64,000 nucleotides of DNA, from NCBI RefSeq assembly GCF_031085375.1, contig NZ_JAVCWF010000001.1, forward strand, positions 930,001 to 994,000. The letters are read 5' to 3'. Below, piece by piece: positions 11,810 through 42,644 of the stretch. The position numbers were made by a program, and so were the translations under genes. Positions within the stretch are counted from its first letter, which is position 1. Every line of letters starts with the position of its first letter. The notes beneath the pieces are model-generated. The model did not search any database, had not been told where the DNA came from, and saw only the letters and a list, made by a program, of their open reading frames with translations. The stretch is from Lactiplantibacillus brownii (lineage in GTDB: Bacteria > Bacillota > Bacilli > Lactobacillales > Lactobacillaceae).

Positions 11810-12325
11810 CCGTCTCTGGAAGCCAGCTCGTTTGCTGTGGACTACCTGCGTCTGTGCGGCGTTTCCGAGCCAAAAGTAACATCTTAAAAGTCGGTCAAAC
11901 ACTAACCTGGGAAAACTCGCTCACTCAGCTTAATGTTTCAATACGGCAAACGTATTGGTTCACACCGATGTTAAATAGTGGTTGTAATCAAAGCATGGAA
12001 AATTAGAACATGCTAATAACCAATTAATATTAGAATTGCTGATTAGTGTAGGGCGGGCTGGATGATGCTCAGTGGTGAAATTTCTCAGAGTGTGAGGTCC
12101 AACGGGTGCTTCTGAGCATTGCCTAGCCATCACAATGACTCGGTGTTTTTTCCGAGTGGTTGCGATGGCGTAGCAAGCGGAGGGAGCTGTTGGACCGAAC
12201 ACGTTTCGAGCTGGTGAACTTCCAGCTTAGAGAAAGCCCGGCGTGTAAGACCGCACTTTGGCTCACAAACGTGGCCACCACGTTCCAGCATCAGTCCAGA
12301 CCAACCGAAACGGCAATTAAAGTAG
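11810..12325 (+). repeat. Large structured non-coding repeat B, copy 1 (with module A inserted)
   Basis: This region aligns over its whole length with 20159-20566 but is about 110 bases longer. It contains no credible gene. Shared paired elements: an outer stem CGTTTGC/GCAAACG, an AAACACT/AATGTTT hairpin, and a three-way domain closed by CTGGATGATGCT (12058-12069) with AGCATC..TCCAG (12287-12299). Between TTTCTC (12081-12086) and GCTGG it carries module A (about 12087-12209), absent from copy 2. It could be a structured RNA or a mobile repeat; direction is assigned by alignment only. Confidence 0.7.
12087..12209 (+). repeat. Hairpin module A nested in repeat B
   Basis: GGTCCAAC (12096-12103) and GTTGGACC (12189-12196) are perfect complements. 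Inside, GCCATC (12126-12131) pairs with GATGGC (12164-12169), and ACTCGG (12138-12143) with CCGAGT (12152-12157). The right end reads CACGTTTCGA as in the copy at 6.3 kb. Confidence 0.6.
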
Positions 12326-12369
12326 AACTTACAAAACAACCACACCGTTTTCATGAATGGGTGTTAGAA

Positions 12370-12412
12370 CGCAAAAAAAAAGTCTGAGAAATTTTCCCCA
12401 GACTGTTTTGTG
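12370..12412 (-). terminator. Terminator of the LCP gene
   Basis: AGTCTG/CAGACT stem with a partly paired interior, followed on the minus strand by nine T (the A run at 12373-12381). Confidence 0.78.
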
Positions 12413-12422
12413 TTTAACTATA

Positions 12423-13433
12423 TTATTTACCGTACAATGAGCCAGTTGTGGCTGATTTCAGATCTAATGATTTCCGTAAAACATTGGTGACCCGTTGCTT
12501 TTCAGTTTGTGGTACCACTTCAAAGGATTGACCACTGATCATCTTACCGGAACCTTGAGCATGATCCGAAACGATATTCTTGGTTGAAGCACGATAGTTC
12601 GAAACGATGCTGGTTAAGTTACTGAACGTTAAATCGGTTCGAGTTTCTTTGGCTAAGGACTTCAAGAAGTCTTGTTTCATCAAGTTAGTGGCATTGGTGC
12701 TTTCACTAATGATGGCAGTGATTAATTGCCGTTGGCGTTGTTGCCGACCGTAGTCACCTAAAGGATCATCATAACGCATCCGTGAATAGGCCAATGCTTT
12801 GGCACCGTTCATATGCGTCTTAGCACCCTTGGTAAAGGTGTAGCCTTCATAAGTAAAGGTCCGGATTGGTGTAATATCCACGCCGCCGACTTCATTGACA
12901 ACTTTCTTCATACCACCCATGTTGATCAAGGCGTAATAGTCAATTGGCACGTTTAACCATTTTTCAACCGTTTTAATGGTTGTCCCAGCACTACCGTAAG
13001 CGTAAGCAGCGTTTAGTTTTGATGGAAAATCCTGCTCAAAGCCAGAGACAGCGACTTCGGAGTCCCGTGGGATACTCATTAAAGTGGTTGTTTTGGTTTT
13101 GGGATTGATGGTTGCCAAGATAATTGTATCGGTCCGGCCTTTGTAGTCACGGCCCAATGCCCCGGTATCGGTTCCGAGTAACAAAATCGATACTGGCTTT
13201 TTACCACTTAAAATGGCGTCGGTGTTACGTGACTTTTTGATGCCACTGCTCTGGTACACAATCTTAGCCGCGTTCCGTGCATTGAAATAAGTTCGTGCCG
13301 CAAAGGCCCCAATCCCAACCAGTAAGACTGCTAGGATAATTAAAAGCGCGTTACGAACTGGATGCTTTTTCTTGGGACCTTTACCCCCAGAATTATCTTG
13401 ATGCATCTGTGAACGACTTGGCATTTCTTCCAT
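12423..13433 (-). CDS. LytR-CpsA-Psr (LCP) family cell-wall ligase
   Basis: 336 residues: a short cytoplasmic, Lys-rich head, one membrane helix (about 30-50), then an extracellular LCP domain with LLLGTDTGALGRDYKGRTDTIILATINP, MSIPRDSEVAV and the Arg-rich ALAYSRMRYDDPLGDYGRQQRQR. These carry the conserved Asp and Arg residues that bind polyprenyl phosphate. LCP enzymes transfer wall teichoic acid or other glycopolymers to peptidoglycan. GGAGGAAAA is eight bases from the ATG at 13433; a TTG further upstream overlaps that site and is rejected. Single-gene unit. Confidence 0.93.
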   Translation of the reverse strand: MEEMPSRSQMHQDNSGGKGPKKKHPVRNALLIILAVLLVGIGAFAARTYFNARNAAKIVYQSSGIKKSRNTDAILSGKKPVSILLLGTDTGALGRDYKGRTDTIILATINPKTKTTTLMSIPRDSEVAVSGFEQDFPSKLNAAYAYGSAGTTIKTVEKWLNVPIDYYALINMGGMKKVVNEVGGVDITPIRTFTYEGYTFTKGAKTHMNGAKALAYSRMRYDDPLGDYGRQQRQRQLITAIISESTNATNLMKQDFLKSLAKETRTDLTFSNLTSIVSNYRASTKNIVSDHAQGSGKMISGQSFEVVPQTEKQRVTNVLRKSLDLKSATTGSLYGK

Positions 13434-13634
13434 GAATTTTTCCTCCAATAGTTATGTAAAAACTATACATAGTTTAGCATCTTTTGGGGTTATCGGAAAC
13501 AAATTTCAAACAACCCCTAAGAATCTTAAGAACCCGAATCCCGAATTCCATCATAACCGTTTTTGGACGGGAAAGGGTTGGATTTAAATTTTCTTGGTGA
13601 TTTTTTAAGGTTCCGTAAACAAGATTGCGTCTAT

Positions 13635-13663
13635 TTTAGTCATTCAGAGCCTTATGGTATAAT
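13635..13663 (+). promoter_or_regulatory. Promoter of the PAP2 gene
   Basis: TATAAT at 13658-13663 with a weak TTTAGT at 13635-13640, 17 bp apart. Confidence 0.5.
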
Positions 13664-13701
13664 TTTATTAATCGATAATATTAATGGGGGTTCTAATTTT
13701 G

Positions 13702-14364
13702 ATGATCGATAAGTCGCGTAGTCGGCCGGTCAAGTTTGTCATTGCAGTCATTTTATTTGCGTATTTAAGCTATTTTATTCAGACTGGCGCAGTGGGGATT
13801 GATTTATTTGACGCTGGTTTGGCCTCGCTTGCCACGATTAAGGTGAATGGCTTCTTTACACTAGTTTTTAAAACGATCAGCTGGTTGGCATCACCCGGCC
13901 GTGATGTGTTTTGGATGGTCCTGTTGGCATTTTTGCTATATGGGTTTAAGTATAAAATTCAAGCGTTGTGGGCAGTCGTATTGATGGCGGGTGGCATGGT
14001 CTTAGAGACGTTTTTCAAGCACTTGATTGCCCGTGCTCGGCCGATTGGTCACTTGGCTACGGACGATGGTTATAGTTTTCCAAGTGGACACACCTTAGGA
14101 ACATTTTTGCTAGTTGCTACGATTATTATAATTATTGTTCCGGAAATAGATAATTATCGCATCGCACAAACAGTTAAATGGATCAGTATTGTTTGGTTGT
14201 TACTGGTGATGGTTGCGCGGGTTTACATGCAAGCTCATTATCCAACTGACACAATTGGTGCGGTTTTACTAGGTTGGCTCTGGCTTGAAATCATGGAGTG
14301 GGTGTATGTAATCTACGCCCCACACTTACTGAAGTGGCGACTATGTTACCGATCCTATTTGTAA
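13702..14364 (+). CDS. PAP2 family membrane phosphatase
   Basis: About 220 residues, six membrane helices, and all three PAP2 signatures: KHLIARARP (K-X6-RP), PSGH in YSFPSGHTLG, and ARVYMQAHYPTD (SR-X5-H-X3-D type). These bind phosphate and form the catalytic His pair. Relatives dephosphorylate undecaprenyl pyrophosphate or phosphatidic acid at the outer membrane face; which one is not readable here. I chose the ATG at 13702 because GGGGG lies 11 bases before it; the frame is open to an ATG at 13684 without a ribosome site. Confidence 0.9.
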   Translation: MIDKSRSRPVKFVIAVILFAYLSYFIQTGAVGIDLFDAGLASLATIKVNGFFTLVFKTISWLASPGRDVFWMVLLAFLLYGFKYKIQALWAVVLMAGGMVLETFFKHLIARARPIGHLATDDGYSFPSGHTLGTFLLVATIIIIIVPEIDNYRIAQTVKWISIVWLLLVMVARVYMQAHYPTDTIGAVLLGWLWLEIMEWVYVIYAPHLLKWRLCYRSYL

Positions 14365-14381
14365 GCTGACTGAACCAAGTC

Positions 14382-14415
14382 AAAAACGATCTCCGAATTG
14401 GAGGTCGTTTTTTTG
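14382..14415. terminator. Bidirectional terminator, PAP2 / esterase
   Basis: AAAAACGATCTCC pairs with GGAG-TCGTTTTT (one bulge), with A and T runs on both sides, between convergent genes. Confidence 0.82.
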
Positions 14416-14432
14416 TTTTGACTTATTTTAAG

Positions 14433-15230
14433 TTAATTAGCGTGTGCTTGCAGCCAGGCTAACGCTAAATTGAACCAATGTGCCGCGTGAGGCTGATTGG
14501 CATCTGGTTTCCAAGCCGTTTGCGAATTGGCTAATGCTAAACCGTGTGGGCCGTGTTCAAAAACGTGTAATTCGTAAGGACGCTTGGCTTTGGCGAGTGC
14601 GGTTGCGTAGGCCAAAGCATTGGTGGCGGGAACTAACGGATCATCCGCGGTCACCCAAATAAAGGTTGGCCGATTATGCTGATTGACCAGTTGATCTGCT
14701 GCCATTTCAGTCGAATTAGCCGTCCATTTGGACAGGGTCGCGGCGTCTTTTGGATATCCCAGACTTGGGTTGATGACGGGGTAACTCAAAATCACGGTTG
14801 CAACGGCTAAATTTTCAGCGGTCGTTTTAAGCAACGCTGGAAGTTGATTTTGCCAATAATCGTTGTAGAGTGCGACGATGTGGCCGCCAACGCTAAAGCC
14901 AACCGGCGTGAGTTGCGTGGTGTCAATATGCCAAGCATCGGCATGTTGCCGTAATAATAAGACCGCGCGTGCGAGGTCTAAAACGGGCGCTAAACCCAGC
15001 GGTTGCTGGTCACCCAACAAAGTGTATTCCAAATAAAAGGCCTGATAACCGTGACCGGCAAAGGCAAGCGCGAGTGTTTCGGCCTGACCAACCGGAATGT
15101 GTGTATAGCCACCACCAGGGACAATAATAATGGCGGGTAACTTAGTTTGATGGGCATTTGGATCTGGTGTGTGTAGTAGTCCTGTCAATTGCGCGGGACT
15201 GTTGGTTAATTTTTGCTGAATCACTTGCAT
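14433..15230 (-). CDS. Alpha/beta hydrolase, esterase (BD-FAE / acetylesterase type)
   Basis: 265 residues. The oxyanion segment VPGGGYTH is at residues 38-44, the nucleophile elbow GFSVGGH places Ser113, the acid is Asp196 or 197 in TADDPLVP, and the His lies in FEHGPHGLAL (226-229). This matches the family that includes acetylxylan and bacterial feruloyl esterases and prolyl-oligopeptidase-like esterases. It probably cleaves short-chain esters in the cytoplasm; no signal peptide. GAGGTGATTGC precedes the ATG at 15230. The GNAT gene at 15292 is divergent. Confidence 0.88.
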   Translation of the reverse strand: MQVIQQKLTNSPAQLTGLLHTPDPNAHQTKLPAIIIVPGGGYTHIPVGQAETLALAFAGHGYQAFYLEYTLLGDQQPLGLAPVLDLARAVLLLRQHADAWHIDTTQLTPVGFSVGGHIVALYNDYWQNQLPALLKTTAENLAVATVILSYPVINPSLGYPKDAATLSKWTANSTEMAADQLVNQHNRPTFIWVTADDPLVPATNALAYATALAKAKRPYELHVFEHGPHGLALANSQTAWKPDANQPHAAHWFNLALAWLQAHAN

Positions 15231-15291
15231 GCAATCACCTCTATTGATATGGTTAACATAACTATTATAACGCAAGCGAGGTGGCACGGTG

Positions 15292-15858
15292 ATGCTGAAG
15301 GCAACGTCAAATTTACAAAATGAACAGCTTAAATTGCGCCCATTTGTTGCGGCAGATGCTGCTGCCTATTTTGAAATGGTGCGCGATCCGAAAGTGGCTG
15401 TTAATGCTGGTTTTACGCCCGCTAACAGTTTGGTTGAGGCTGAATATTTACTAAGCCGCCAGTCAAAGCTATCAGAAGTGTACGCAATCGTATTAATGTC
15501 CACGGCCGAAGTCATTGGCAGCATTGGGTTGTATGAGCGAATGAACTCGCAAGGTGAACCTGCGCCACAACAGATGGACCTAGGCTATATGTTGACACAA
15601 ATGGCTTGGGGGCATGGCTACATGACAAGTGCGGTGCATTTGATTGTCAATTATGCGTTCCAAGATTTAAACTTACGACGATTAACCGCAAGCTGTTTAG
15701 CGCCGAATACGGCTTCGCGACTGATTTTAGAACATGCGGGCTTTCGACAATACGATCAAGTCACGCATCCGGCTTATGCTCAGTTTGGTGCGGGCCAAAC
15801 TGAATTGTTTTTTGAGTGTTTACCCGCAAATGGAGATGACACAAATGCAACTCGCTAA
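15292..15858 (+). CDS. GNAT N-acetyltransferase (RimJ/RimL type)
   Basis: 188 residues. LKLRPFVAADAAAYFEMVRDP at the N terminus, DLGYMLTQMAWGHGYMTSAV in the acetyl-CoA motif, and LRRLTASCLAPNTASRLILEHAGFRQ at the end match the RimJ/RimL GNAT subfamily, which acetylates protein N termini or small amines. GAGGTGG stands 7 bases before the ATG; a GTG three bases earlier is possible. Its last 14 bases overlap the start of the Rrf2 gene, so the two are co-translated. Confidence 0.88.
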   Translation: MLKATSNLQNEQLKLRPFVAADAAAYFEMVRDPKVAVNAGFTPANSLVEAEYLLSRQSKLSEVYAIVLMSTAEVIGSIGLYERMNSQGEPAPQQMDLGYMLTQMAWGHGYMTSAVHLIVNYAFQDLNLRRLTASCLAPNTASRLILEHAGFRQYDQVTHPAYAQFGAGQTELFFECLPANGDDTNATR

Positions 15859-16369
15859 ATCATTCGAACAAGCTGCGTGCGTCGTCGTGTTATTAGCGAC
15901 GCAGCGACCCGATATTCCGCTCACATCGGATGTGATTCATGAACGGATTGGTGGTTCGGCTTCTTATATTCGCAAAATTATTCGAAAATTGGTCGTGGCG
16001 GATTTAGTGGCTTCAACTAGTGGTAACAATGGTGGGGTTCAATTGGCGCGCTCGCCGGAAGCCATCTCGATTAAGGATGTGGTGCTCGCCATCGAGGGAC
16101 CATTGCATACTTTTCCAGATCGTGGTTATTTTGACCAAGTCTTTAAAGATGTGGAACCCGTGGCGGATGAAGGGACTAAAGTCGTTAACGCGATCTTTTC
16201 GCAGGCCGACCAACAGTGGCTTGCTTTTTTGAGTCACCAAAAAATTGCCGCGCTGATTAAGGATTTATTAGCGGTCAGTCAGATTCCAGTCTTGAATTGG
16301 AACAACCAATCTGAAGACAAAATGGGGCAATTAAATCAAATTTTAACGCGGATGCGCGCCGCCAAGTGA
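15845..16369 (+). CDS. Rrf2 family transcriptional regulator
   Basis: 174 residues. MQLAKSFEQAACVVVLLATQ, the helix-turn-helix LTSDVIHERIGGSASYIRKIIRKLVVADLV and the wing NNGGVQLARSPEAISIKDVVLAIEGP are Rrf2. It contains no cysteine after the first helix, so it does not carry the Fe-S cluster of IscR or NsrR and belongs to the YwnA-like cluster-free group. The start at 15845 has GGAG nine bases upstream. It lies just before alsS on the same strand and might control it, but a 186-base gap separates them. Confidence 0.87.
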   Translation: MQLAKSFEQAACVVVLLATQRPDIPLTSDVIHERIGGSASYIRKIIRKLVVADLVASTSGNNGGVQLARSPEAISIKDVVLAIEGPLHTFPDRGYFDQVFKDVEPVADEGTKVVNAIFSQADQQWLAFLSHQKIAALIKDLLAVSQIPVLNWNNQSEDKMGQLNQILTRMRAAK

Positions 16370-16473
16370 GTTAATCTACAAACAGCCTGAAAATGTATGC
16401 GGTTTCGATTATTTAATTGCTGAAAACTGCAGTCTGACGTGCTTAGCTTAAAAAAATGGCTCAGAAACTTTTT

Positions 16474-16485
16474 TTCACAAGTGAA
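16474..16485 (+). promoter_or_regulatory. Candidate operator upstream of alsS
   Basis: TTCACAAGTGAA has perfect 5-bp arms around AA and lies 70 bases before the alsS start, close to a possible promoter. It could be the site of the neighbouring Rrf2 regulator. Seen by eye; no motif model was used. Confidence 0.3.
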
Positions 16486-16555
16486 CAATCGCTGTTATTA
16501 CAAGGCTATCTATGGTATTCTAACAATAATTTTCACAATAGGAGCGAGCAAAAAA

Positions 16556-18238
16556 ATGGCAGATAAAAAGTATTATGGTGCTGACGCAATCGTTGACAGT
16601 TTGGTCAATCATGACGTCAAGTATGTATTCGGGATTCCTGGGGCAAAGATTGATCGGGTTTTCGAACGTTTAGAACATCCGGTAAATGCTAAGAGTCCCA
16701 AGTTGATCGTGACGCGGCACGAACAAAATGCGGCATTCATTGCAGCTGGGATTGGCCGCATTACCGGTAAACCAGGGGTTGTCATGACGACTTCTGGTCC
16801 CGGTGCCAGTAATTTAGCCACTGGACTAGTGACTGCGACGGCTGAAGGGGACCCAGTTTTGGCCATTTCTGGTCAAGTTCAGCGGGCCGATTTATTGCGA
16901 CTGACTCATCAAAGCATGGATAACGCTGCATTATTTGAACCCATCACGAAGTATAGTGCTGAAGTTCAAGAGCCAGAAAATGTTTCTGAAGTGATTGCGA
17001 ATGCTTATCAATCTGCAGTTGCAGCCAAGCAAGGCGCTAGTTTCGTCAGCATTCCACAAGATGTGACGGATTCAATCGTGCGCACGCCAGTCATTAATCC
17101 GTTGCAGGCGCCTAAACTTGGGCCAGCTAGCCCAGTTGAAGCCACTTTATTAGCAAAAAAAATCAAAGCAGCCAAATTACCAGTATTGTTAGTGGGGATG
17201 CGGGCTTCTTCACCAGAAGTGACCCAAGCAATTCGGAATTTAGTGACAGCGGCAAACTTGCCCGTTGTTGAAACGTTCCAAGCTGCCGGCGTTATTTCAC
17301 GCGATTTGGAAGCTGAACACTTCTTTGGTCGGGTTGGGTTATTCCGAAACCAACCTGGTGACATGTTATTGAAGAAGTCAGATTTAGTGATTGCCGTTGG
17401 CTATGATCCAATCGAATACGAACCACGTAACTGGAACGCCGAAGGTAAGTCTCGGATTGTGGTTATTGACGCCATGCGGGCAGAAATTGATCACAACTTC
17501 CAACCAGAAACTGAATTAGTGGGTGATATTGCCCAGACGTTAGACTTCTTATTGCCTTATATGAAGGGCTACGATATTAGTGATGACGCCAAAACTTATT
17601 TGAGTGAATTACAAGAAAAGCTGAAGACACGTGACTTTGTACCCAACATTGATGCGGATTCAACATTGAGTCATCCGCTATCCGTGATTGCCGCGTTACA
17701 ACAACGTGTGACGGATGATATGACGGTGACGGTTGATGTCGGAAGCTTCTACATTTGGATGGCGCGGCATTTCCGTAGCTATGAACCGCGGCACTTGTTA
17801 TTCAGTAATGGGATGCAAACACTTGGGGTTGCCTTACCATGGGCAATTGCCGCAGCGTTAGTCCGGCCTAAGACACAGATCGTTTCGGTCTCAGGTGATG
17901 GTGGGTTCCTATTTTCTAGTCAGGAACTCGAAACGGCCGTTCGTTTGAATTTGAATATCGTGCATCTGATTTGGGATGACGGTAATTATGACATGGTCAA
18001 GTTCCAAGAAGAAATGAAATATGGTGAAGATGCTGCGGTCAGCTTTGGCCCAGTTGATTTCGTCAAATATGCTGAAAGCTTTGGCGCTAAGGGGTTACGG
18101 GTGAATAAGCCTAGTGAACTAGAAGCCGTGCTAGATAAAGCTTTCAAGACGACTGGTCCGGTCGTAGTCGATATTCCAATTGATTACTCCGACAACCAAG
18201 CATTAGGTAAAACGATGTTGCCAGATCAATTCTATTAA
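16556..18238 (+). CDS. alsS: Catabolic acetolactate synthase
   Basis: 560 residues with the three thiamine-diphosphate enzyme domains. The catalytic Glu56 lies in TRHEQNAAF, the FAD-independent AlsS pattern continues with [10 protein letters not shown] and [20 protein letters not shown], and the ThDP motif begins at GDGG (447-450). It joins two pyruvates to acetolactate, the first step to diacetyl, acetoin and 2,3-butanediol, relieving acid and pyruvate stress. The ATG at 16556 has AGGAGCGAG upstream; the frame is open earlier but without homology. No alsD follows. Pyruvate oxidase was considered, but the sequence follows AlsS closely. Confidence 0.93.
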
Positions 18239-18257
18239 ACCGTCGTGTGAATCGCGG

Positions 18258-18286
18258 TTGTCAAATTGAAATGACTTTTGTATAAT
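18258..18286 (+). promoter_or_regulatory. Promoter of the lysine riboswitch-lysP transcript
   Basis: TTGTCA at 18258-18263 and TATAAT at 18281-18286 with a 17-bp spacer, about 12 bases before the riboswitch begins. Confidence 0.8.
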
Positions 18287-18297
18287 GATTGAGTATA

Positions 18298-18480
18298 TCG
18301 AAAGAAGAGGACGCGATTAACAAGAGTAGCTGATTCGAGTCGGGTAGCCGATGATGATGATCAGTGAAAGGGGCAATCGCCGAAATGAACCTGACTGTTA
18401 CCGTCAAGTTTGTTGGGCTTTGGTTGAATAAATCAAGGACTGTCGCAACTGGGAAACAGTTGCGGGGCGCTATCGACGAT
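18298..18480 (+). ncRNA. Lysine riboswitch (L box)
   Basis: The conserved L-box segments occur in order: AGAGGACGCGATT near 18305, GTGAAAGGGGCAATCGCCGA near 18364-18383, ATCAAGGACTGTCGCAACTG near 18430, and TGCGGGGCGCTATC at the 3' side. Together they give the five-helix lysine-binding aptamer. It sits directly upstream of an APC permease, which supports naming that gene lysP. The terminator at 18511 completes the switch: high lysine should stop transcription early. Confidence 0.93.
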
Positions 18481-18510
18481 GAAATCAGCATTTAACATGA
18501 CCATCTGATT

Positions 18511-18548
18511 AAGTCTTTTTGCGCACTTTGCAGAAAGACTTTTTATTT
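18511..18548 (+). terminator. Riboswitch-controlled terminator
   Basis: AAGTCTTT (18511-18518) pairs with AAAGACTT (about 18533-18540), followed by TTTATTTT. It is the expression platform of the lysine riboswitch. Confidence 0.8.
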
Positions 18549-18686
18549 TGGTCAAAACGGATGCCAGAATCGGTGGAAACACTTTTAGATATAAATTTAG
18601 GACGGCGGTTAGTGTTCGATTGATGGACAATGGTGTCGATCAATTGTTGCCAACTTTGACGTCAAACTATTTTTGGAGGTTTCTGC

Positions 18687-20135
18687 ATGGCAGAAGAACA
18701 ACAGCATGAAGTGAAGCGCTCGTTACAGACGCGGCATCTCTCCATGATTGCATTAGGCGGTAGTATTGGGACTGGACTGTTTGTGGCGTCTGGTTCCGCA
18801 ATCTCAACAGCTGGACCAGGTGGGGCCTTATTGGCCTATGTTGGGATTGGGATCATGGTCTATTTCTTAATGACCAGTTTAGGTGAAATGGCGACTTATC
18901 TACCGGTTTCTGGGTCATTTTCGACTTATTCGACCCGATTTGTTGATCCGGCCTTAGGGTTTGCGATGGGCTGGAACTATTGGTTTAACTGGGCGATTAC
19001 GTTAGCGGTCGATATTAGTACGGCGGCAATCGTGATGCAGTTTTGGTTACCACATGTTCCTGGGTGGATCTTTAGCTTGATTGCATTGATTTTGATCTTC
19101 ACAATTAATGCCCTTTCCGTACGGTCATTTGGTGAGACCGAATATTGGTTATCTTTAATCAAAGTGATTACGGTATTGATTTTCTTAGTCGTTGGGGTCT
19201 TAACGATTTTTGGTATCATGGGCAGTAATGCGACTGATCTCAGCAACTTCACGTATAAAAAAGCGCCATTCGTCGGCGGTATTCCAACAATTTTAAGTGT
19301 CTTCGTCGTGGCTGGGTTTTCATTTCAAGGAACCGAATTGATTGGGATTACGGCTGGTGAATCTGCGACACCGGAAAAGAGTATTCCAGCGGCCATTAAA
19401 CAAGTTTTCTGGCGTATCTTACTTTTTTATATTCTAGCGATCTTTGTGATTGCGGCAATTATTCCTTATACTTCGAAAGATTTGTTAGGGTCATCTGCGA
19501 GCGATATCGCCATCAGTCCGTTTACTTTGGTCTTCAAAAAGGCCGGTTTAGCAGCGGCGGCGAGTGTGATGAATGCGGTCATTTTGACTTCCGTTTTGTC
19601 GGCAGCCAACTCTGGAATGTATGCTTCCACACGGATGCTCTATTCATTGTCTAAGCAAGGTTATGCGCCTAAAACGTTCGGTCGCGTCAATGGTCGAGGA
19701 ATTCCGATTATGGCGTTATTTGGGACGACTTTCATTGGGTTACTGACCTTCTTGTCGAGTCTATTTGGTGATCGGATCTACATTTTCTTAGTGTCTGCTA
19801 GTGGGTTGACCGGGTTTATTGCCTGGTTGGGGATTGCTATCTCACATCTTCGTTTCCGGCAAGCCTTTGTTAAACAGGGCCATGATCTGAGCGAGTTGCG
19901 TTATCATGCCAAATTATTTCCATTTGGCCCATTGTTTGCATTCTTCCTCTGTATGATCGTCATTATTGGTCAAGACTTGCATTCGTTTGCGACCATGGAT
20001 TGGCAAGCTATTGGGGTCACCTATATGAGTATCCCGCTGTTTATTGTGCTATTTTGCTACTATAAGATTCGTTACCATACGAAGCTGATTCCACTAGATA
20101 AAGTGGATCTTAGCAAACATCATTTGGACGATTAG
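18687..20135 (+). CDS. lysP: Lysine-specific APC family permease
   Basis: 482 residues, 12 membrane helices. SLQTRHLSMIALGGSIGTGLFVASG near the start and FSFQGTELIGITAGE in helix 6 are signatures of the amino acid/polyamine/cation superfamily, AAT subfamily, as in LysP. It imports lysine with protons. The lysine riboswitch upstream makes lysine the likely substrate, which sequence alone would not fix. GGAGG is eight bases before the ATG. Single-gene transcript. Confidence 0.92.
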   Translation: MAEEQQHEVKRSLQTRHLSMIALGGSIGTGLFVASGSAISTAGPGGALLAYVGIGIMVYFLMTSLGEMATYLPVSGSFSTYSTRFVDPALGFAMGWNYWFNWAITLAVDISTAAIVMQFWLPHVPGWIFSLIALILIFTINALSVRSFGETEYWLSLIKVITVLIFLVVGVLTIFGIMGSNATDLSNFTYKKAPFVGGIPTILSVFVVAGFSFQGTELIGITAGESATPEKSIPAAIKQVFWRILLFYILAIFVIAAIIPYTSKDLLGSSASDIAISPFTLVFKKAGLAAAASVMNAVILTSVLSAANSGMYASTRMLYSLSKQGYAPKTFGRVNGRGIPIMALFGTTFIGLLTFLSSLFGDRIYIFLVSASGLTGFIAWLGIAISHLRFRQAFVKQGHDLSELRYHAKLFPFGPLFAFFLCMIVIIGQDLHSFATMDWQAIGVTYMSIPLFIVLFCYYKIRYHTKLIPLDKVDLSKHHLDD

Positions 20136-20158
20136 TATTGCTTGACGGTATTTTGTAG

Positions 20159-20566
20159 CCGTCTCCGTGGACCAGCTCGTTCACTGTGAGGCAGACTTGC
20201 AGCCAAAGAGCGGTCGGCAAGGCGTTTTCAAGCCGAAAATCATGTCTTAAAAGTCGGCCCAGACACTGACCTGGGTAAAATCACCCAGCTAAGTGTCTCG
20301 ACACGACGAACGAGCTGGTCCGCTCCGATGTTAAATAGTGATTGTAATCAAAGTATTGGTAATCTTAATATCTCCAAAATTCAATTGATATTGAGGCTAC
20401 TGATTAGTGCAGGGCGGGCTGGATGATGCTCAGTGGTGAAATTTCTCTTGGCTGGTGGTTTTCCAGCTTAGAGAAAGCCCGGCTTGTGAGACCGCCCTTT
20501 GGCTCACAAACGTGGCCACCACGTTCCAGCATCGATCCAGACCAACCGGAGCGGCAAGCAAAGTAG
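20159..20566 (+). repeat. Large structured non-coding repeat B, copy 2
   Basis: Aligns with 11810-12325 without the inserted module. No gene. Paired elements: GGACCAGCTCGTTC (20169-20182) with GAACGAGCTGGTCC (20308-20321), 14 bp perfect; AGACACT (20262-20268) with AGTGTCT (20292-20298); CTGGGT with ACCCAG inside it; then a domain closed by CTGGATGATGCT (20419-20430) with AGCATCGATCCAG (20528-20540), next GTGGTG/CACCAC, and two arms TTTCTC..GCTGG/CCAGC..GAGAAA and TTGTGAG/CTCACAA. Confidence 0.7.
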
Positions 20567-20617
20567 ATAGTTGTAAATAGGATAGCGATGATGTGCAGGC
20601 TTCAATAAAGTATAAAA

Positions 20618-25091: not shown

Positions 25092-25357
25092 GTGCCCAAA
25101 GCTTGTTTAACGTCGTACTCATCGTTACAATTATCCATTTAACTTGCCAATTCGGTTGGCCTGAACTGATGCTGGAGCGTGCTGAGCAACAGAGACAGAC
25201 AAGCGATAGAGTAGCTACAATATCTTAACCACCAGCTCGCCATAATTTTTGGCCGCTAAGGCAATTTTCAGTCCAATCAATTGAATGCAGGTCAGGGGCG
25301 TGCTATGCTGTAACAACCGTGAGAGGCCTATCTGTACCGCCCTTTAGGTGAAATTCT
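25092..25357. other. Intergenic region before ctsR, with a reversed repeat B fragment
   Basis: No gene. Positions 25142-25185, read on the minus strand, match the 3' end of repeat B (TCCAGCATCAGT and CCAACCGAA are shared). The rest holds nothing I can name. Confidence 0.5.
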
Positions 25358-42515: not shown

Positions 42516-42608
42516 GGCATCAAGTAGTCGTAGTTAGCTTTGATGTGAAAGGTTGCGACACGCCCGGCCACATTGTCATGGGACGTGGCGGTAATTTTCA
42601 CGGAGCTA

Positions 42609-42630
42609 GTCTTATTTTCAAAATAGACGA
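42609..42630 (+). other. Hairpin just upstream of the rpsJ ribosome site
   Basis: AGTCTTATTTT and AAAATAGAC pair with one bulge, ending at GAAGGAGG. It could influence translation start of rpsJ, the first gene of the S10 operon. Confidence 0.35.
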
Positions 42631-42644
42631 AGGAGGTCACAACA

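Follow-up and report, generated by a model that had tools for sequence, protein, structure and literature searches.

The window analysed here is a stretch of 64,000 nucleotides from the genome of Lactiplantibacillus brownii (contig NZ_JAVCWF010000001.1, positions 930,001 to 994,000; positions below are counted from its first letter). It contains two long repeats, copy 1 (11810-12325) and copy 2 (20159-20566), which a preliminary description had aligned end to end and read as gene-less, multi-branched folds of no named RNA family. The alignment holds over the full length at these coordinates. The paired changes can also be followed by eye: the stem that closes the 5′ domain reads CGTTC/GAACG in copy 2 and CGTTTGC/GCAAACG in copy 1, a hairpin pair reads AGACACT/AGTGTCT in one copy and AAACACT/AATGTTT in the other, and CTGGATGATGCT with AGCATC..CCAG is seen in both. 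Neither repeat carries a recognised gene; copy 2 has no open reading frame (ORF) of 60 amino acids or more, and copy 1 is overlapped by three ORFs of 74-80 amino acids, for which no protein-family search was made. Among the families of Rfam 15, none matches either repeat over its cut-off, and at permissive settings copy 1 matches only mir-955 (E 3.6). The two repeats belong to a structured mobile repeat which is real, is found in many genera of Lactobacillaceae and experiences strong selection on its fold.

The consensus of 30 oriented copies from the L. brownii genome gives the layout of the family: an imperfect terminal inverted repeat (consensus about TAGTGYATCGTAGCNATCATATTTAT), a 5′ module, an AT-rich spacer, a 3′ module and the inverted repeat again. 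The terminal repeats fall outside the coordinates first given and are mostly decayed in copies 1 and 2 (Table 1). Both modules are three-hairpin folds, a single module being about 145 bases long, and the 5′ module is homologous to the 3′ module in inverted orientation. A covariance model made from 51 representatives of the 3′ module (R1) matches the 5′ module on the minus strand in both copies, weakly in copy 1. A stretch of about 120 bases in the 3′ domain of copy 1 forms an extra arm, subtype B, which is found in 16 copies of this genome, copy 1 included (the excised arms measure 126-145 bases, apart from one of 65). Because the profile of this arm also matches, mostly in inverted orientation, the longer elements of the G003/G005 type and several other places, the arm looks like a second structured mobile module that was added more than once. 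Similar modules of about 125 bases also occur at L173 1970-2090, L249 1379-1501, L264 219-555 and L062 6139-6258, other species included.

Table 1. Parts of the two repeats, in positions of the window.
Feature	Positions	Strand	Evidence
Copy 1, 5′ module	11818..11963	-	nhmmer 5′ profile 11810-11980; weak R1 minus-strand match 11825-11967, E 0.13
Copy 1, AT-rich spacer	11964..12051		sequence
Copy 1, 3′ module, subtype B, split by enlarged first arm	12052..12313	+	nhmmer 3′ profile 12052-12087 and 12209-12313; R1 match 12188-12314, E 2.4e-12
Copy 1, extra structured arm (subtype B)	12088..12208 (about)	+	absent from copy 2; same criterion as the L. brownii copies with the arm
Copy 2, 5′ module, three hairpins and long closing stem	20167..20323	-	R1 minus-strand match 20213-20307, E 2.3e-7; structure counts in the L. 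brownii genome
Copy 2, AT-rich spacer between inverted modules	20324..20411		sequence; consensus less conserved here
Copy 2, 3′ module, three-helix fold	20412..20555	+	R1 match, 159.0 bits, E 1.6e-37
Copy 2, remnant of right terminal inverted repeat	20571..20598	-	by-eye likeness to family consensus TTATAAATATGATAGCTACGATGCACTAG

The architecture varies in other genomes. Elements of G003, G005 and G020 also have two inverted modules, with 656-913 bp between the inner ends in 20 of 24 elements (four could not be measured), and their end of about 45 bp differs from that of L. brownii. The longest ORF of one G003 element (L038), which was not searched against protein families, has 85 amino acids. 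In G091 the modules occur singly, inside repeats of about 200-270 bp. In G086 (L224 1535-2200) an inverted pair of modules flanks a stretch that holds, by eye, a short reading frame and a terminator-like hairpin, perhaps a toxin-antitoxin-like unit.

The repeat is abundant. The counts are lower bounds, as the DNA searches scored at most 40 candidates each in the L. brownii genome and the plain DNA comparison at most 11 per genome, while R1 searches covered at most 150 candidates per genome in the genus and, with stricter filters, at most 20 in the family. With copy 2 as a query, at least 46 matching pieces are found in the L. brownii genome (itself included, the others with 78-92% identity), and with copy 1 at least 69. 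Profiles of the two half-elements give, at the loci of this genome, 83 matches to the 3′ half and 63 to the 5′ half; they form 69 clusters in the parts examined, some of which are fragments of one element, and 50 have both core ends. R1 gives at least 130 module matches in the same genome and at least 150 in three genomes of the genus. It matches 19 of 21 genomes of the genus, the remaining two (G001 and G002, 2.6 Mb each and 99-100% complete) having no R1 module match, and at least 37 of 151 Lactobacillaceae genomes, in 12 of 40 genera. The plain DNA comparison reached 16 of 60 genomes, L. brownii included, all of them in the genus, and none of 23 genomes from other families of the order. Records with an exact 19-base core include L. 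nangangensis, L. songbeiensis, L. dongliensis, L. daoliensis, L. fabifermentans and 'plantarum EGD-AQ4'. A DNA search with copy 2 found nothing on plasmids or phages at E 1e-5. Viral contigs contain no exact match to one short pattern and 10 stretches that match a second, and short exact matches also occur in a gammaproteobacterial metagenome-assembled genome (L063); none of them is a model match at E 0.1.

The site of copy 2 documents the mobility of the family. The gap between lysP and dacB (gene names are labels assigned here) is 635 bp in L. brownii, where it holds copy 2, and 121-157 bp without any profile match in eight of 19 relatives, including G014, whose LysP is 98% identical. G015 has matches of its own at this site, and the remaining ten relatives have gaps of 203-706 bp with no match to the profiles, which were made from L. 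brownii copies and may therefore miss distant modules; G002, with a partial match, was excluded. At the site of copy 1 the small downstream gene is found in only four of 21 genomes, and four other genomes (G018, G008, G016 and G020) have a module match within 700 bp of the neighbouring gene, so that this site may be older or re-used; the gap is 107 bp in G009. Since relatives have empty sites, the family is almost certainly a mobile DNA repeat; it is intergenic and carries no recognised transposase. Its terminal inverted repeats are imperfect in single copies and differ between species.

Among the 67 clusters of 69 that could be classified relative to genes, 42 lie between tandem, 17 between convergent and 8 between divergent genes, and no cluster is inside an ORF of 90 amino acids or more (two overlap an ORF end, by 134 and 108 bases). 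Relative to tandem genes, 20 copies have the same and 22 the opposite orientation, which does not fit a cis-regulatory leader RNA, for which constant orientation and position relative to genes would be expected. The two halves of the main contig are also alike in copy orientation (+21/-15 and +19/-14), the replication origin not having been located. A candidate autonomous element between inverted copies 1.3 kb apart (L117) proved to be two separate copies around a gene for a VOC-family protein (by eye).

The fold was evaluated in two alignments: A2, with 51 of 53 representatives (L075 2233-2366 and L099 1028-1159 were left out), and A3, with 115 distinct matches including other genera, which is aligned to the model and so leans to its structure. 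In A2, 36 of 45 pairs show change on both sides, none of 500 shuffles reaches any of five measures, and 96.5% of cells are paired; this share falls to 80.7% in shuffles and to 33-47% once the partners are shifted along. In A3, two-sided change affects 41 of 45 pairs, and again none of 500 shuffles matches on the five measures. Single pairs can hold all four Watson-Crick types (for example UA 16, CG 14, GC 11 and AU 8 in one column pair). A T·T mismatch inside the first arm is kept in 51 of 51 sequences of A2 and 111 of 115 of A3 while the neighbouring pairs covary, and nearly invariant unpaired letters are kept across species. The two copies themselves fold far better than their shuffles (z = -9.06 as RNA and -6.33 as DNA for copy 2, z = -5.35 as RNA for copy 1; none of 100 shuffles was as good in each case).

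This very strong covariation bears out the conserved fold proposed from two repeats. Common descent alone is unlikely to explain the paired changes, because the pair types are spread across species and genera, though the controls remove relatedness incompletely. It is thus highly probable that the three-helix fold is under selection. What evolution has preserved is the intricate fold more than its exact letters, a sign that some factor may recognise the strand in its folded state. The alternative named in the preliminary description was a mobile DNA repeat in decay: the mobile part of that alternative stands, given the terminal inverted repeats and the empty sites, whereas the fold is not decaying noise, given the covariation and the conserved T·T mismatch.

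A G·T pair, ordinary in a strand that folds, turns into A·C when the complementary strand is read, and the ratio of G·T to A·C therefore shows which strand is constrained. In module orientation this ratio is 72:14 in 52 representatives below 80% identity, 24:7 in 21 sequences from other genera, and 59:16 in A2 (45:16 when the other strand is used to choose the pairs). Pairing by Watson-Crick pairs only, with no wobble bias, was ruled out once the distant representatives gave the first of these values. The 5′ modules of L. brownii give 63:37 in their own, opposite orientation, with pairs placed by hand on their own consensus, and ten relatives' 5′ modules only 10:7 in module orientation. The ratio varies with the pairs chosen: 70 relatives' 3′ modules give 83:23 with the plus-strand fold and 35:18 with the minus-strand fold. 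In the same pipeline, RNase P gives 53:7 (20 sequences) and 38:6 (12 of the genus), and the lysine riboswitch 67:24 (25 sequences) and 43:4 (13 of the genus). To judge from this tolerance of wobble pairs, the constraint in each module falls on a single strand, the one read outward. The constrained strand flips with the module, and a single transcript therefore cannot hold both modules in the constrained sense.

The composition of the modules differs from that of the RNA controls: their unpaired bases are 19-25% A and 25-31% T, versus 40-41% A in the lysine riboswitch and RNase P. Promoter-like sites were searched for in 46 spacers of L. brownii, with expected counts from shuffles that keep only base content; sites directed toward the 3′ module occur in 6 of the 46, versus 5.5 expected. 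Because the unpaired bases are not A-rich, the orientation to genes is random and no clear promoter is seen, folded single-stranded DNA is favoured over RNA as the acting molecule, somewhat and not decisively.

We therefore consider, with a probability of about 0.52, that the repeat is a non-autonomous mobile element whose fold is under selection and acts as folded single-stranded DNA. Movement or replication would leave one strand of each module, the one read outward, single-stranded, and this strand would fold. A putative trans-acting protein would then recognise the fold through the invariant loops and the T·T mismatch. An element whose fold is lost would stop spreading, while individual copies decay after insertion; if recognition of the fold is needed for spread, selection would act on the spreading lineage. 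A more specific proposal is put forward tentatively, as it is rather less probable: that the repeat is a transposition substrate of a new class, with a large three-helix fold of single-stranded DNA facing outward in each half of the element, served by a factor other than the known Y1 transposases and spread through the Lactobacillaceae.

Several results weigh against action as folded DNA or against transposition of this kind. As far as the wobble ratio goes, RNA and single-stranded DNA fit equally well, and the 3′ modules of L. brownii themselves show no wobble bias (13:11). Pairs with a majority of G·T are not significantly rarer than in the two RNA controls of the genus: 1 of 45 in the modules and 3 of 45 in the 21 sequences from other genera, versus 20 of 169 (P = 0.086 and P = 0.42, respectively; the lysine riboswitch has 6 of 55). 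Promoter-like sites directed toward the 5′ module occur in 10 of the 46 spacers, versus 5.9 expected (P = 0.063), eight of them at one place. Neither a transposase nor an autonomous partner with the same ends was found, and a diverged partner could escape such a search. All 12 matches to the end in the L. brownii genome (at most 3 mismatches) lie within 150 bp of a module match, and facing end pairs matched by eye in G003 are 0.26-0.99 kb apart, none longer, with some ends left unpaired. The similarity between left and right ends is scarcely higher within one element than between different elements (permutation P = 0.044), and no clear target-site duplication is apparent in the flanks inspected by eye.

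Some of these points are shared by the alternative that survives best, in which the modules are structured RNAs, each transcribed outward and carried along by the mobile element, with a role such as guide, scaffold or decoy. The ratio of 72:14 is near that of RNase P, the covariation is of the kind used for RNA discovery, and promoter-like sites point toward the 5′ module in 10 of the 46 spacers, eight of them at one place. Copy 2 lies between the stop codon of lysP and a terminator-like hairpin seen by eye, where a simple terminator scan lists none, and it may thus be co-transcribed with lysP. This alternative nevertheless seems unlikely, as the unpaired bases are poor in A relative to the RNA controls, sites toward the 3′ module are as frequent as expected, the inverted modules of one element cannot share a transcript in the constrained orientation, the orientation to genes is random and no Rfam family matches.

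Template-switch repair can copy one arm of a palindrome onto the other and thereby mimic compensatory change. The repeat might accordingly be an ordinary decaying miniature inverted-repeat transposable element (MITE), in which the paired changes come from the repair of imperfect palindromes and the fold has no function. Its size, its ends and the lack of a recognised gene would fit. Under such repair the T·T mismatch, which is kept throughout A2 and in nearly all of A3, would disappear; nor would nearly invariant unpaired letters be kept across species or G·T be favoured over A·C to the extent observed, and we regard this explanation as improbable. Like bacterial MITEs, the repeat is shorter than about 1 kb, lacks a recognised gene, has terminal inverted repeats and is intergenic. 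In contrast to them, it is the folded interior and not the ends that is conserved across species, and no autonomous partner was found.

Repetitive extragenic palindromes (REPs) and REPINs have one short, imperfect hairpin per module, and their folded modules are inverted. REPs are reportedly the bacterial single-stranded segments considered in a study of T·T mismatches. The present repeat resembles REPs and REPINs with their RAYT transposase in its inverted folded modules and high copy number, and differs from them in that its modules are three-helix folds of about 145 bases and that the Y1 transposase family PF01797 has no match in the L. brownii genome, which rules out a Y1 transposase as the mover there, within the reach of Pfam. 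A REP/REPIN-like repeat moved by a genome-encoded Y1 transposase (TnpA-REP or IS200-type) would agree with two inverted imperfect-hairpin modules around a spacer, the copy number, the intergenic position and the report, in the accessible part of the source, of T·T mismatches in DNA akin to non-coding single-stranded segments of bacteria (PMC7709200), and is very improbable because PF01797 is also unmatched in seven other carriers of the element (G008, G003, G005, G014, G019, G004 and G017), while it is matched in 13 of 21 genomes of the genus, including G001 and G002, which have no module.

The closest published category that we found for the repeat is that of the mobile/repeat sequence candidates (MRSC), such as MRSC-65-2, which are, in the part of that report consulted, multi-copy, inconsistent in orientation with genes and endowed with covarying structure (PMC11109978). 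The present repeat shares these three features. MRSC-65-2 is described there as a single long stem from diverse phyla, whereas the module here has three helices and was searched for and found in Lactobacillaceae. GOLLD and ROOL, which the consulted part of another paper presents as ornate RNAs of Lactobacillales (PMC12286853), are likewise large, structured and non-coding; the present repeat differs in its dozens of copies in one genome, the absence of an Rfam match and unpaired bases that are not A-rich. No recognisable description of the repeat was found in the open-access literature, which is weak evidence of novelty since most subscription papers are outside this scope; the passages inspected in PMC2864571 describe no such repeat.

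Elsewhere in the window, a lysine riboswitch (18297-18480) is found upstream of an amino-acid permease gene, and copy 2 lies downstream of the same gene. At 42532-42634 this Lactobacillaceae genome matches the S10-Clostridia ribosomal leader family, only slightly above the cut-off. Directly past the tRNA cluster, R1 gives a weak minus-strand match (25146-25278, E 0.061), possibly a decayed copy or a chance match.

The bacteria that carry the repeat include much-studied food species, and yet a repeat with at least 130 module matches in one genome matched no Rfam family. The two genomes of the genus without the module, G001 and G002, are useful as negative controls. Should the fold act as DNA, it would be a clearly selected folded DNA signal of unusual size and would point to an undescribed mobilising enzyme. 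Should RNA be the acting form, the repeat would represent an abundant RNA family that has been missed so far. Either way, the repeat bears on the annotation of Lactobacillaceae genomes and on the interpretation of intergenic transcription in this family.

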